Assembly: GCA_004210455.1 (NCBI GenBank)
Contig: SEFA01000061.1
Location: 1 to 40,561, forward strand
Origin: Rubrivivax sp.
GTDB lineage: Bacteria; Pseudomonadota; Gammaproteobacteria; Burkholderiales; Burkholderiaceae_C
Reading direction: 5' to 3'
Length of the DNA stretch: 40,561 nt
The notes beneath the pieces are model-generated. The model saw only the letters and a list, made by a program, of their open reading frames with translations. It was not told the DNA's origin and did no database searches. Made by a program: the position numbers and the translations under genes. Each line of letters opens with the position of its first letter. Position 1 is the stretch's first letter. Below are positions 34,819 to 40,409 of this stretch, in pieces.

Positions 34819-37800
34819 TTACATGCTGCGCCGGTACTGCCCGCCCACCTCGAAGAGTGCCGCGGTGATCTGTCCGAGCGAGCACACCCGCACCGCGTCC
34901 ATCAGCACGTCGAAGACGTTGCCGTTGGCTATCACGGCCTGCTGCAGGCGCTTGAGCATGGCGGGCGCCTCGGCCGCGTGGCGCGCATGGAAATCGCCCA
35001 GTCGCGTCAGCTGGCCCTGCTTCTCGTCCTCGGTGGAGCGCGCCAGCTCGATGTGCTCCGGCACCGGATCGCCTTGCGGGTTGCGGAAGGTGTTCACGCC
35101 GATGATGGGGTACTCGCCGGTGTGCTTCAGCATCTCGTAGTGCATCGACTCTTCCTGGATCTTGCTGCGCTGGTAACCCGTCTCCATCGCGCCCAGGACG
35201 CCGCCGCGCTCGGCGATGCGCTCGAACTCGGTCAACACCGCCTCTTCGACCAGTTCGGTGAGCTCGTCGATGATGAACGCGCCCTGGCTCGGGTTCTCGT
35301 TCTTCGCCAGACCCCACTCGCGGTTGATGACCAGCTGGATCGCCATCGCGCGACGCACCGATTCCTCGGTCGGCGTGGTGATCGCCTCGTCGTAGGCGTT
35401 GGTGTGCAGCGAGTTGCAGTTGTCGTAGATCGCGATCAGCGCCTGCAGCGTGGTGCGGATGTCGTTGAAGGCGATCTCCTGCGCGTGCAGCGAGCGGCCC
35501 GAGGTCTGGATGTGGTACTTCAGCTTCTGGCTGCGCTCGTTGGCGCCGTACTTGTCGCGCATCGCCACGGCCCAGATGCGGCGTGCGACGCGGCCCAGCA
35601 CGGTGTACTCCGGGTCCATGCCGTTGCTGAAGAAGAAGCTCAGGTTGGGCGCGAAGTCGTCGATGTGCATCCCGCGCGCGAGATACGCCTCCACGAAGGT
35701 GAAGCCGTTGGACAGCGTGAAGGCCAGCTGCGAGATCGGGTTCGCGCCCGCCTCGGCGATGTGATAGCCGCTGATCGACACCGAGTAGAAGTTGCGCACG
35801 TCGTGGTTGACGAAGTACTGCGCGATGTCGCCCATCACCTTGAGCGAGAACTCGGTCGAGAAGATGCAGGTGTTCTGGCCCTGGTCCTCCTTGAGGATGT
35901 CGGCCTGCACCGTGCCGCGCACGTTGGCCAGCACCCAGGCGCGGATCTTGGCGGCCTCGTCGGCCGTCGGCTCGCGGCCGTTGTCGGCCTTGAACTTCGT
36001 CAGCTGCTGGTCGATGGCGGTGTTCATGAACATGGCCAGGATCGACGGCGCCGGGCCGTTGATGGTCATGGACACCGAGGTCGTCGGGTGGCACAGGTCG
36101 AAGCCGTCGTACAGGACCTTCATGTCGTCCAGCGTCGCGATGCTGACGCCGGAGTTGCCGACCTTGCCGTAGATGTCGGGGCGCGGCGCCGGATCGGCGC
36201 CGTAGAGCGTGACCGAGTCGAAGGCCGTCGACAGCCGCTTGGCCGGCAGGCCCTCGGACACCAGCTTGAAGCGCCGGTTGGTGCGGAAGGCGTCGCCCTC
36301 GCCGGCGAACATGCGGGTGGGGTCCTCGCCCTCGCGCTTGAAGGCGAACACGCCGGCCGTGTACGGGAAGCTGCCCGGCACGTTCTCCAGCATCAGCCAC
36401 TTGAGCAGCTCGCCCTGGTCCTCGTACGGCGGCAGCACGACCTTGCGGATGCGCGTGCCCGACAGCGAGGTCGACACCAGCGCGGTGCGGATCTCCTTGT
36501 CGCGGATCTTCACGACGTACTCGTCGCCCGCGTAGGCCTGCTGCATGTCGGGCCATTGTGCGAGCAGCTGGCGCGCGTCGGCGTCGAGCTTCGCCAGACG
36601 TGACGCCGCGAGCGCCTCCAGCGAGGCCAGCGACGCAGCGTGCGTCTGCGCATTTCCCCCTGCTTCCGTGCCGCCCAGCATCGCCGCGCTCGCGGTCAGC
36701 TGCTGGATCTCGCGGGCCAGGCGCGCCTGCGCGCGGGCCCGCTTCTTGTACGAGCGCACCGTGTCGCCGATCTCGGCGAGGTAGCGCGAACGCGCCGGCG
36801 GCACGATGGGCGTCTGGTGGGTGCTGAAGCGCGTGGCGGCGACCGGCAGGCGGCCGTCGCGGAGCATCAGGCCGAGTTCGGCCAGGCGGGGCTTCAGCGC
36901 CTGGTAGAGCGCGGTCACGCCGTCGTCGTTGAAGCGGCTGGCCATGGTGCCGAAGACCGGCAGTTCCTCGGCCTTCTTCCCCCACGCTTCCTTGTTGCGC
37001 TGCACCTGCTTGGCGACGTCGCGCCACGCGTCGGCCGCACCCTTGCGGTCGAACTTGTTGATCGCGACGAACTCGGCGAAGTCCAGCATGTCGATCTTCT
37101 CGAGCTGGCTGGCCGCGCCGAACTCCGGCGTCATCACATACATCGGCACGTCGACGTGCGGCACGATGGCCGCGTCGCCCTGGCCGATGCCGGAGGTCTC
37201 GACGATGACGAGGTCGAAGCCCGCGACCTTGGCCGCGGCGATCACGTCGGGCAGCGCCTGCGAGATCTCGGAGCCGAAGTCGCGCGTCGCCAGCGAGCGC
37301 ATGTAGACGCGTTGTCCCGCGGCCCACGGCGCGATCGCGTTCATGCGGATGCGGTCGCCCAGTAGCGCGCCGCCGCTCTTGCGGCGTGACGGATCGATCG
37401 AGATCACGGCGATGCGCAGCGCATCGTCCTGGTCCAGGCGCAGGCGGCGGATCAGTTCATCGGTGAGAGAGGACTTGCCCGCGCCGCCGGTGCCGGTGAT
37501 GCCGAGGACAGGGATGCGCAAGCCCTTGGCGCCGTCGCGCAGCGACTGCGTGAAGGCCGCATCGGCGCGGCCGTTCTCCAGCGCCGTGATCGCCTGCGCG
37601 AGCGCGCGCCAGGCGCCTTCCGAATGGCCTTGCAGCGCGGCGACGGCCTTCGGCGCGGCGGCGCTGAGGTCCTGGTCGCAGCGCATGACCATCTCGCCGA
37701 TCATGCCCATCAGGCCCATGCGCTGACCGTCCTCGGGGCTGAAGATGCGCACGCCCTGGTCGGCCAGGTCGCGGATCTCGGCCGGCACGATGACGCCGCC

Positions 37801-38124
37801 GCCGCCGCCGAAGACCTGGATCTTCTCGCCGCCGCGCTGGCGCAGCAGCTCCACCATGTACTTGAAGTATTCGACGTGGCCGCCCTGGTAGGAGCTGACC
37901 GCGATCCCCTGCGCGTCTTCCTGCAGGGCGGCGGTGACCACCTCGTCCACCGAGCGGTTGTGGCCCAGGTGGATGACCTCCGCGCCCATGCTCTGCAGGA
38001 TGCGCCGCATGATGTTGATCGCCGCGTCGTGCCCGTCGAACAGGCTGGCGGCGGTCACGAAGCGGACCTTCTGGGTGGGGCGGTACTCGGCCAGGGCCTT
38101 GTACTCGGCGGACATCTCGGTCAT
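34819..38124 (-). CDS. icmF: Fused isobutyryl-CoA mutase with G-protein chaperone (IcmF)
   Basis: This adenosylcobalamin enzyme interconverts isobutyryl-CoA and n-butyryl-CoA. The 1101-residue protein has the IcmF order: an N-terminal B12-binding domain (about 18-150, axial-ligand motif DGHDAA with His32, then SSYQGG and GGGGG), a MeaB-like GTPase chaperone (P-loop GTGGAGKSS at 211-219, SGIGQGD, NKFDRKG), a linker, and the mutase barrel from about residue 550 ([32 protein letters not shown]). The fusion and length distinguish it from methylmalonyl-CoA mutase, though substrate choice cannot be proven by eye. GGAGA precedes the ATG at 38124. The promoter carries a LiuR-like palindrome, which fits a role near branched-chain amino acid degradation. 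Confidence 0.95.
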
Positions 38125-38343: not shown

Positions 38344-40380
38344 CTAGCGCCGCATCCCGACTCGCCCCTGCGTCAAGCGCGCTCCCAGGAGCAGCAGGCC
38401 GGCCAGCATCAGGGCCCAGGTGCCGGGCTCGGGGACCGCGGCCACGCGCAGGAAGGATTGCCGGTAGTCCACCCCGTCGGTGCCGAAGGCCGTGTACGCG
38501 TTGACCACCCCACCGTCGGCGTCCGTCACGCCGGTGATGCCGTCCCAGTACAAGCCTGTGGAGGTGACGTCGATCGTCGATCTCGACCGTGCGGTGAACG
38601 GGGCGCTGCTTTCATCGCTCAGCACGGCGGTGATCGTGCTGGCGTACAGACGCAGGTCCAGATGGATGGGGCGCCCGAACGCGAACTGGATCGACAGCTC
38701 CTGCAACCCCGAGGTGGCGTGAGGAGGCTCGTAGACGCTCCACGACCCGTTCGTCTCGGTTTCCAGCCGGAAGTACTGGATGCCGACGGTGTCCGGCGTG
38801 TACTGCCAAGGCGGATCGGGCGGCGGGCGGGGCACGCCTTCGGACTGCAGGGACACGTTGGCGCCCCAGCTCGTGTCGGCGGTGTAGCGACCCAGCTCGC
38901 CCGGCGGCTGGCCGAGCTGTCCCGAGCGGCTGGTGATGCCTTCATAGTTGATGCGGAAGTTCATCCATCCCAGGGTGCCGGCGGCACAGGTTGCGCACTG
39001 GATGACGATGTCGTCGCTGAGCGAGCTGGATACCGTTGAGCGAACCTCCGCCGCCTGCAGGGGCGCATGCACCGAGATCTCGGCATCGGCCGTCATGCCG
39101 GCCCACAGCCGGCCATGATCCGCGCCGCTCCAGCCGACGCTGAATGCATTGGCGAACTGGTCGCCGTCGCGATACGAGTTGCCCTGGCCGTAGCTCAGCA
39201 TCAATCCCGGGAGGATGGCGACATCCTGCACGGCGCCCCGGTCCGGCTGTCCCGGGACACGCGTCACGTAGTCTTGGGCGGCGCGGTATTGGGCCGCGTT
39301 CGCCAGGGGCGCGAACAGCGCGCCGACGATCGCCGTCACGGCAGCCGGCACGCGCCAGGTGGAGAGCTTAGGCATGGCAGGCTCCTTGATATCGACGCTC
39401 ACGGCGCCGTGTGACTTGCGGGCATGGCGGGCGAAGGCGGCGAGCAGTGCCAGCCCCAGTGCCATCAACGCCCAGGTGCCGGGCTCGGGGACGGCCGCCG
39501 CGAGCGCGTAGTCGACGCCCTGGGCGTTGAGGGCGGTGAAGTCGGTGACCGGCTGCCCGTTCGCATCCCAAAGGCCGCTGATGCCCTTCCAGGACAACGA
39601 GAGGCTGAAGTCGACGTTGGCGGTGGACCACCCCTCGCCGCCGTCCGCCGTGGACGTCAGGGAGGACGTCTGGCCGGTGTCCAGGTACAGCGACAGCCAC
39701 AGGGGCTCACCGAAGATGAAGTTCACCTCGAAGGATCCCAGCGCTTCTCCTGCCATCTCGCCGTCTTCCGTCCGTCCCGCATTGCTGTTGCTTTGGTACC
39801 CCCAGATGTAGCCCCACGCAGATTCTTCCTGTCCCACCGGGAAACCGGTCGCACTCAAGGTGAAGCCGGCCAGGAAACCCAGGGACTCGAAGTGGTCTCC
39901 CCGCGTCGCGACGCCGTCGAGGGCACGCAAGGGGGTGGCGAACACCGAGGCCGCCAAAGTGCCGACGGTGCCCGCGATACAGGTGGGGCACGTGATGGTG
40001 AAGGCGTCGTCCATGGTGGCGGCGGAGCCGCTCTGCGACTGGACCGTGCGGGACGCCGAACCGGTCGTCATCGTCGCCGAGCCCTGCGTGAAGGTCTTGA
40101 CCCAGCCATAGCCGGAAGACGCCTGGCTGAAGCCGGTGGACGTCGCGCTGAAGTCCAGGGCCGGCACCGTGACGGCATCGTCCAGCGAGAGGGTGCGGAC
40201 CTCGCCGGCCGCGTTCTGCCGGGCCTCGTAGGTCTGCTGGGTGGGCGTGCCGGACGAGGCCAGGTTGACGAATTGGGTGGTCGAGAACCCCTGTGCCCAG
40301 GCGGGCGCCAGGGGGATCAATGCCAGAGCAGCCGCCGCGGCGGCGCGTGCGATGGCCGGTCGATGCGAAATGAAGCGCAT
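38344..40380 (-). CDS. Tandem PEP-CTERM protein (two complete modules in one frame)
   Basis: One uninterrupted 678-codon frame encodes two related exported proteins end to end. Module 1 (1-335) has a signal peptide ending in APAWAQ and a PEP-CTERM sorting signal starting VPEPG at 297, followed by a hydrophobic helix and a basic tail. Module 2 (336-678) has its own start, a signal-peptide-like segment (VPAAVTAIVGALFAPLANAAQ), and a terminal VPEPG at 649. PEP-CTERM signals are recognised by exosortase for processing at the membrane. The modules are paralogous, with shared blocks such as FGxPhxLxLYL, a CPTC/CATC pair and GITG/GISG...GVDY. GGGAGA precedes ATG 40380. The function of the mature domains is unknown. 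Confidence 0.85.
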   Translation of the reverse strand: MRFISHRPAIARAAAAAALALIPLAPAWAQGFSTTQFVNLASSGTPTQQTYEARQNAAGEVRTLSLDDAVTVPALDFSATSTGFSQASSGYGWVKTFTQGSATMTTGSASRTVQSQSGSAATMDDAFTITCPTCIAGTVGTLAASVFATPLRALDGVATRGDHFESLGFLAGFTLSATGFPVGQEESAWGYIWGYQSNSNAGRTEDGEMAGEALGSFEVNFIFGEPLWLSLYLDTGQTSSLTSTADGGEGWSTANVDFSLSLSWKGISGLWDANGQPVTDFTALNAQGVDYALAAAVPEPGTWALMALGLALLAAFARHARKSHGAVSVDIKEPAMPKLSTWRVPAAVTAIVGALFAPLANAAQYRAAQDYVTRVPGQPDRGAVQDVAILPGLMLSYGQGNSYRDGDQFANAFSVGWSGADHGRLWAGMTADAEISVHAPLQAAEVRSTVSSSLSDDIVIQCATCAAGTLGWMNFRINYEGITSRSGQLGQPPGELGRYTADTSWGANVSLQSEGVPRPPPDPPWQYTPDTVGIQYFRLETETNGSWSVYEPPHATSGLQELSIQFAFGRPIHLDLRLYASTITAVLSDESSAPFTARSRSTIDVTSTGLYWDGITGVTDADGGVVNAYTAFGTDGVDYRQSFLRVAAVPEPGTWALMLAGLLLLGARLTQGRVGMRR
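39375..39387 (-). promoter_or_regulatory. Internal ribosome binding site and start for PEP-CTERM module 2
   Basis: On the minus strand, AAGGAG (39382-39387) lies six bases before an in-frame ATG (39373-39375). This ATG begins a signal-peptide-like sequence and would give a separate 343-residue protein. The site is encoded inside the linker that joins the two modules. Confidence 0.7.
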
Positions 40381-40409
40381 GGCGCTCTCCCTGGCGGCGT
40401 GCTGCCGGT

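Follow-up and report, generated by a model that had tools for sequence, protein, structure and literature searches.

Neighbouring genes for exosortase substrates carrying the PEP-CTERM sorting signal are repeatedly fused in frame in one bacterial order, and this class of fusions is real as a gene architecture. At least five fusion events, or six with that in the window (the whole 40,561-nucleotide stretch of DNA analyzed here), are found in three families of the order; one yields a chain of four proteins, two are kept across species, and one of these two has been kept after loss of the internal start. The fused frames are maintained under purifying selection in two families. Like a polyprotein, each such frame encodes more than one complete protein, the joins carrying possible cleavage signals, and the fusions are probably precursors of exosortase substrates linked by a hairpin hinge, a reading in which the topology, both cleavages, and the stoichiometry are deduced from sequence. 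The broader proposal, that Gram-negative bacteria make secreted polyproteins from which an exosortase and signal peptidase I release two to four proteins by way of a bifunctional hinge, appears to us evenly balanced between right and wrong.

Two PEP-CTERM modules in one frame

Translation of the window reveals 678 codons open on the minus strand from an ATG at 40380 to a stop codon at 38344, and Pfam PF07589 and NCBIfam NF035944 each match two stretches of the encoded protein, P0001. The features of the locus are as follows.

38344 to 40380, minus strand: fused coding frame of two PEP-CTERM preproteins, 678 amino acids and a stop codon (translation and two PF07589 matches)
40387 to 40392, minus strand: ribosome-binding site of module 1, AGGGAG, 6 nt upstream of the ATG (sequence)
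40294 to 40380, minus strand: N-terminal segment of module 1, resembling a signal peptide, MRFISH...APAWA (by eye)
39376 to 40380, minus strand: module 1 including its read-through tail (translation and alignment)
39415 to 39492, minus strand: PEP-CTERM of module 1, VPEPGTWALMALGLALLAAFARHARK (PF07589 match at 39415 to 39495, 35.3 bits)
39399 to 39401, minus strand: TGA corresponding by homology to the stop codon that ends the upstream R. noduli gene; in the window it is out of frame (DNA alignment)
39382 to 39387, minus strand: ribosome-binding site of module 2, AAGGAG, with a 6-nt spacer to the ATG (G+A-rich counterpart in R. noduli)
39373 to 39375, minus strand: internal ATG of module 2 (sequence)
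39295 to 39375, minus strand: internal signal-peptide-like segment, MPKLSTWRVPAAVTAIVGALFAPLANA, which together with the preceding PEP helix forms the hinge (translation)
38347 to 39375, minus strand: module 2, which corresponds to R. noduli gene C at 51–53% identity (alignment)
38380 to 38439, minus strand: PEP-CTERM of module 2 (PF07589, 23.7 bits)
34822 to 38124, minus strand: icmF-like gene with B12-binding, MeaB GTPase, and methylmalonyl-CoA mutase domains, used as syntenic marker

Both PF07589 scores exceed the curated cut-off of 20.7 bits. The description given in an earlier note on this DNA, of one stop-free frame with two complete PEP-CTERM proteins, is thus borne out together with its coordinates, as are a first module that keeps its PEP-helix-basic tail and a second with an AAGGAG site, an ATG, and a signal-peptide-like segment of its own, all of which can be read in the sequence. 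Inspection by eye, charge, and hydropathy indicate that both N-termini resemble signal peptides, that of module 2 reading MPKLSTWR-VPAAVTAIVGALFAPLANA. The body of module 1 contains CxxC and FxFGxP motifs and module 2 is laid out alike. Motifs of these kinds occur family-wide, in a domain that matches nothing in Pfam except at the PEP-CTERM. The two modules are 26–27% identical over their alignments and are, on this comparison, distant paralogues; no relative of solved structure was found for them by sequence at E ≤ 1. Sigma-54 type sites are not in excess: the window has 15, and shuffled sequences have 16.5 on average. That the frame is open by chance is rejected as improbable, given the two complete modules in it and the fusions kept in relatives.

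The PEP-CTERM of module 2 sits at the extreme C-terminus of the chain, and the 343 residues of module 2 stand downstream of that of module 1. The fused module 1 is therefore not a standard PEP-CTERM substrate, because its sorting signal lacks the extreme C-terminal position.

Turnover of modules beside icmF

The gene at 34822–38124, which we take to be icmF, has a product 93–98% identical to those of R. noduli, Mitsuaria sp. GD03876, R. aquatilis, R. chitinivorans, and Mitsuaria sp. PDC51, and the window's genome belongs with Roseateles (including 'Mitsuaria'). The R. terrae locus examined lacks icmF. Beside icmF lie three separate PEP-CTERM genes in R. noduli, two separate genes in each of R. 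chitinivorans and Mitsuaria sp. PDC51, one gene in R. aquatilis, and one four-module frame in Mitsuaria sp. GD03876. The earlier note had set relatives with plainly separate genes against a genuine fusion; such relatives exist in R. noduli, R. chitinivorans, and Mitsuaria sp. PDC51, but the genes of GD03876 are fused. The number of modules beside icmF differs between species, marking a hot spot of turnover.

In the window's genome, a further PEP-CTERM gene upstream of the fused pair is found on another contig.

C16:691-1692 (= L225:691-1692): gene A of the window's genome

Gene A has 76% protein identity to R. noduli. Among the modules compared, module 2 is closest to R. noduli gene C and module 1 is closest to module 4 of GD03876 (42% over 214 amino acids); module 1 is 34% identical to R. 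noduli gene B, its positional counterpart, and has no clear orthologue in R. noduli. The flanks of the locus have 85–93% DNA identity to R. noduli. Protein identities of 34%, 51%, and 76% set against those of the flanking DNA indicate that some modules turn over fast in a stable neighbourhood. Fast turnover of PEP-CTERM proteins in general is described in passages of Haft 2006 (PMC1569441).

A displaced frame at the join

At the locus of the window R. noduli has separate genes, and its upstream gene ends in a TGA 23 nt before the second ATG. The DNA of the two genomes aligns well around the join, and from the helix to the TGA the lengths differ by a net one base, seen as a single one-base gap. 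The search suggested earlier, for a stop codon of related loci near 39376–39430, thus succeeds, the stop codon of R. noduli being the homologue of window positions 39399–39401. Because this TGA is still present, though out of frame, loss of the stop codon by substitution is ruled out, and because the modules are of different types, so is a recent duplication of one module in the window; the proposal that a stop codon was lost after tandem duplication fails on both points. The alignment indicates rather that the window fusion is a displacement of the frame past a retained stop codon, in which the translation signals of the second gene, ribosome-binding site and ATG, are intact. Since this ribosome-binding site and Met are retained, as are two acidic residues, module 2 could be made alone as well as within the fusion. 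The openness of the 23 nt is in itself weak evidence, because in R. noduli the homologous stretch is the leader of a gene that stands separately.

The window fusion is seen in one genome and hangs on one base, and it looks like the youngest case. It is possible, though we consider it doubtful, that the genes are really separate as in R. noduli and that sequencing or assembly got one base wrong in the tail of module 1, which opened the frame. The stop codon of R. noduli at the homologous place, the single one-base gap between helix and stop codon, the retained ribosome-binding site and ATG, and the occurrence in a single genome are all consistent with such an error, as is the position near a break in the assembly: the window contig ends 181 nt past module 1, and in R. 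noduli 72 nt separate the alignment of this end from that of the C16 start, which places an assembly break shortly upstream of the fused gene. On the other hand, the completeness of the genome is rated at 100% and its contamination at 0.69%, the stretch that differs by one base is no long homopolymer, and a fusion at this place is not odd, since GD03876 has a four-module fusion at the same locus.

Fusions in related genomes

The four-module fusion is syntenic with the window locus.

L135:9686-13624, plus strand: single frame with four PEP-CTERM modules, Mitsuaria sp. GD03876

From stop codon to stop codon this frame comprises 1,495 codons, or about 1,313 amino acids from the likely Met, and it is known from the one genome. 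None of its three joins has an apparent leader or a start codon that would leave a basic n-region, and within the hydrophobic segment of the third there is an ATG.

A fusion of a different type is present in the window's own genome.

C186:26336-27430 (= L043:4337-5431), minus strand: P0002, two-module FxDxF-type (NCBIfam) fusion, 364 amino acids

P0002 is a single frame in four species, namely the window's genome, R. noduli, R. aquatilis, and G008 (G000, G005, G002, and G008, respectively), with pairwise identities of 64–89%. For module 1, module 2, and the part from the loop to the AxA, pN is lower than pS in all six pairs, and for the PEP helix in five of the six. No start codon at a usable place is common to all four. 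Lacking a usable internal start and occurring in four species, P0002 provides better evidence of a polyprotein than does the window pair. In the survey of 16 genomes the P0002 modules are separate in seven congeners (G009, G004, G011, G001, G003, G012, and G007), where the first gene stops shortly past the basic cluster and is followed by a new ATG and a signal-peptide-like start of its own; no match was found in G006, G010, G014, and G015, and the copy in G013 lies at a contig end. In the tree of these modules a long, fully supported branch splits the module-1 from the module-2 copies, and the duplication predates the fusion. A single clade (96/95) unites the fused module-1 copies, and the fused module-2 copies group at 93/99 with the very long row of the separate G007 gene inside, whose place is unsure. 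The tree is read most simply as a single fusion of an old gene pair, kept ever since. A further two-module fusion in G008, P0003, has a GTG at the hinge that could serve as a start, and was not found fused outside G008 in the 60 genomes searched.

The fusion P0004 belongs to another family of the order and combines a first module with an unrelated second one, a DUF4465 domain (PF14717), for which solved structures were found by sequence. In one genus the two are fused in six of 12 genomes (G207, G246, G428, G372, G118, and G281; L227–L232), separate in three, and without a match in three. The join contains an ATG in two of the six (G207 and G246) and no Met in three; in G428 a CTG replaces the ATG of G207 and G246 and the frame is retained. 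Among G207, G246, and G428 the hinge has pN of 0.06–0.15 versus pS of 0.52–0.56; in comparisons with G281, pN of 0.37–0.42 nears pS of 0.45–0.67. A third family of the order is represented by genome G144, which was not among the rows of the hinge profile that found it.

L268:2762-5089, minus strand: frame of 776 codons with two PEP-CTERM motifs, G144

The suggestion in the earlier note of a natural polyprotein thus gains from fusions kept in relatives and is less secure for the window itself, a young case in a single genome for which cleavage is a matter of prediction.

Anatomy of the hinge

In total, 16 in-frame hinges from a PEP-CTERM to a signal peptide are found in 12 genomes of the one order. 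All follow the same plan: a PEP motif, a helix of 15–18 residues, a loop with four to nine Arg or Lys residues, and a hydrophobic segment of 16–24 residues that ends in small-x-Ala (A, V, S, G, T, or L being accepted at −3, and AxA alone being weak in Ala-rich segments). Acidic residues are absent from all the second segments and from all the loops except that of the window, which at 26 residues with two acidic residues and one Met is as expected of a raw fusion. Because the strings were cut by eye, with the loop ending at the last K/R and the segment at the last small-x-Ala, the uniformity of the hinges is partly a matter of definition, and the freedom of the segments from K/R is no finding at all.

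In 12 of the 16 hinges no ATG, GTG, or TTG leaves a basic residue before the hydrophobic core, and some contain in-frame GTG, TTG, or ATG codons inside the segment. A start that keeps a basic n-region is present in the other four, as ATG in the window, G207, and G246 and as GTG in P0003; among these four, the window alone has a ribosome-binding site that is well spaced by eye. Translation from an internal start is rejected as a general explanation, being possible in the window, G207, G246, and perhaps P0003, with the remaining 12 hinges lacking the basic n-region.

Alternatively, the fusions may be real and yet uncut, with the PEP helix and the following hydrophobic segment each spanning the membrane in a polytopic surface protein. 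We regard this as unlikely. The cleavage of the fusions is itself deduced, and passages of Haft 2006 (PMC1569441) place the PEP-CTERM domain at the extreme C-terminus and suspect the very few with much longer tails of being non-functional, both of which are consistent with uncut chains; however, the second segment is short and has an AxA end where separate orthologues have a signal peptide, and the PEP and basic cluster are kept in 16 of 16 hinges. It is quite improbable that module 1 of the window is decaying, its altered tail abolishing sorting and the internal start yielding module 2 as the sole product: the tail has a weaker basic cluster than in R. noduli (RHARK versus RRGRGR) and itself runs on, and the module is far from its positional counterpart, but it retains its ribosome-binding site, signal-peptide-like start, CxxC, FxFGxP, PEP, and uninterrupted frame, and its PF07589 score is above that of module 2.

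Frequency of the fusions

PEP-CTERM-like ends were collected by script from the DNA analyzed, a sample biased towards fusions. It yielded 254 distinct ends, 251 of them with a stop codon in view, for which the distance from VPEP to the stop codon is at most 45 residues in 235, 46–60 in two, 61–150 in one, and more than 150 in 13. All 13 of the last group lead into a second PEP-CTERM module. The window hinge is absent from the 254 because it does not fit the pattern of the script; two hinges of GD03876 do fit the pattern but are absent from the 13, and were probably recorded from a locus cut before the stop codon.

Scans with the hinge profile covered 399 genomes of the order, 299 of the family, and 398 of the phylum, three overlapping samples in which at most 16–22 candidates per genome were scored. 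Among the matches listed, the new cases are those in G207 and G144. Five of the six DUF4465 hinges are absent among the matches listed for one of these scans although their genomes were in it, indicating that the scans undercount. Three matches (G381:C103, G428:C6, and G179:C5) have no second PEP-CTERM in frame and were rejected, as was the partial hinge match G847:C1, which has no long-tailed PEP end. In the scan of the 16 genomes of the genus, nine full stop-free hinges score 62–71 bits and the next match, with a stop codon, 50 bits, a gap that provides no independent test because all nine are rows of the profile.

Proposed processing of the hinge

The window's genome encodes XrtA and XrtB, its two PF09721 genes passing the respective cut-offs, and two exosortase genes are present in 16 of 16 genomes of the genus. 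To our knowledge the chemistry of exosortases has been little tested. In one experimental study PepA was found to be processed, the C-terminal cut being left open in the portion cited here (PMC9850573). For ordinary PEP-CTERM proteins, a published figure legend sets out the sequence of steps proposed below for the hinge, with removal of the Sec signal and anchoring by the PEP-CTERM domain until processing (PMC12188702).

The repeated in-frame joining of neighbouring substrate genes would, on our model, create precursor polyproteins. After the PEP motif, a helix of ∼17 residues would cross the membrane from outside to inside and place the four to nine Arg and Lys residues on the cytoplasmic side, and the hydrophobic stretch of 16–24 residues that follows them would cross back from inside to outside and end at AxA. 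A single basic cluster could thereby end the PEP-CTERM signal and at once provide the n-region of the following signal sequence. The positive-inside rule predicts a hairpin with its arginines in the cytoplasm, and SecYEG would thread the chain in this form. Signal peptidase I would then cut after AxA, freeing the N-terminus of the next module, and an exosortase, XrtA or XrtB, would cut at or near PEP, releasing the previous module, so that one message would give two to four surface proteins in a fixed ratio. With the arginines shared in this way, both cleavage signals could persist in a fusion that has lost the stop codon, leader, ribosome-binding site, and Met.

Comparison with known systems

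The closest known concept is that of the NCBIfam family midcut-by-XrtH (NF033207), whose name suggests cleavage by an exosortase in the middle of the protein. Weak matches to the profile of this family are seen at the PEP helix of P0001 (17.9 bits) and at the hinges of P0002 (16.3 bits), its R. aquatilis relative, and GD03876 (23.1 bits), and the best score of the profile in the 16 genomes of the genus, 24.8 bits, lies off the hinges. Membership is rejected, since the matches of 16–24 bits fall below the cut-off of 45; moreover, in contrast to midcut-by-XrtH, the exosortases found here are XrtA and XrtB, with no XrtH among the matches listed, and it is whole preproteins that are chained. The literature searched, to which most subscription papers are external, yielded no paper on midcut-by-XrtH and no description of a PEP-CTERM polyprotein.

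The fusions resemble PEP-CTERM/exosortase substrates (PF07589, TIGR02595; Haft 2006) in that each module starts like a signal peptide and ends in PEP, helix, and basic residues and that exosortases are present, and differ from them in that every PEP-CTERM except the last of a chain lies internally and is followed by another whole module. The nearest worked-out parallel seen is mammalian IGSF1, in which the duplicated parts of a secreted protein are joined by an internal signal sequence and signal peptidase cuts there (PMC9162367). IGSF1 is eukaryotic, represents a single fusion, and involves no exosortase; it works alike and is unrelated. Viral glycoprotein polyproteins such as those of bunyaviruses are similar in being membrane-threaded precursors cut into several products; unlike the present fusions they are viral and devoid of a C-terminal sorting signal, and they serve as an analogy only. 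Signal peptidase has a role in the processing of bunyavirus glycoprotein polyproteins.

Significance

An internal PEP site with a large downstream module attached would make the exosortase cut directly readable on a blot, and annotation that treats internal PEP-CTERM matches as noise would miss fusions of this kind. If the proposed processing is correct, a C-terminal sorting signal need not be C-terminal, and bacteria would make membrane-cut polyproteins somewhat as do viruses and as in mammalian IGSF1. In Roseateles, arrays of surface proteins would then grow through the in-frame joining of modules.
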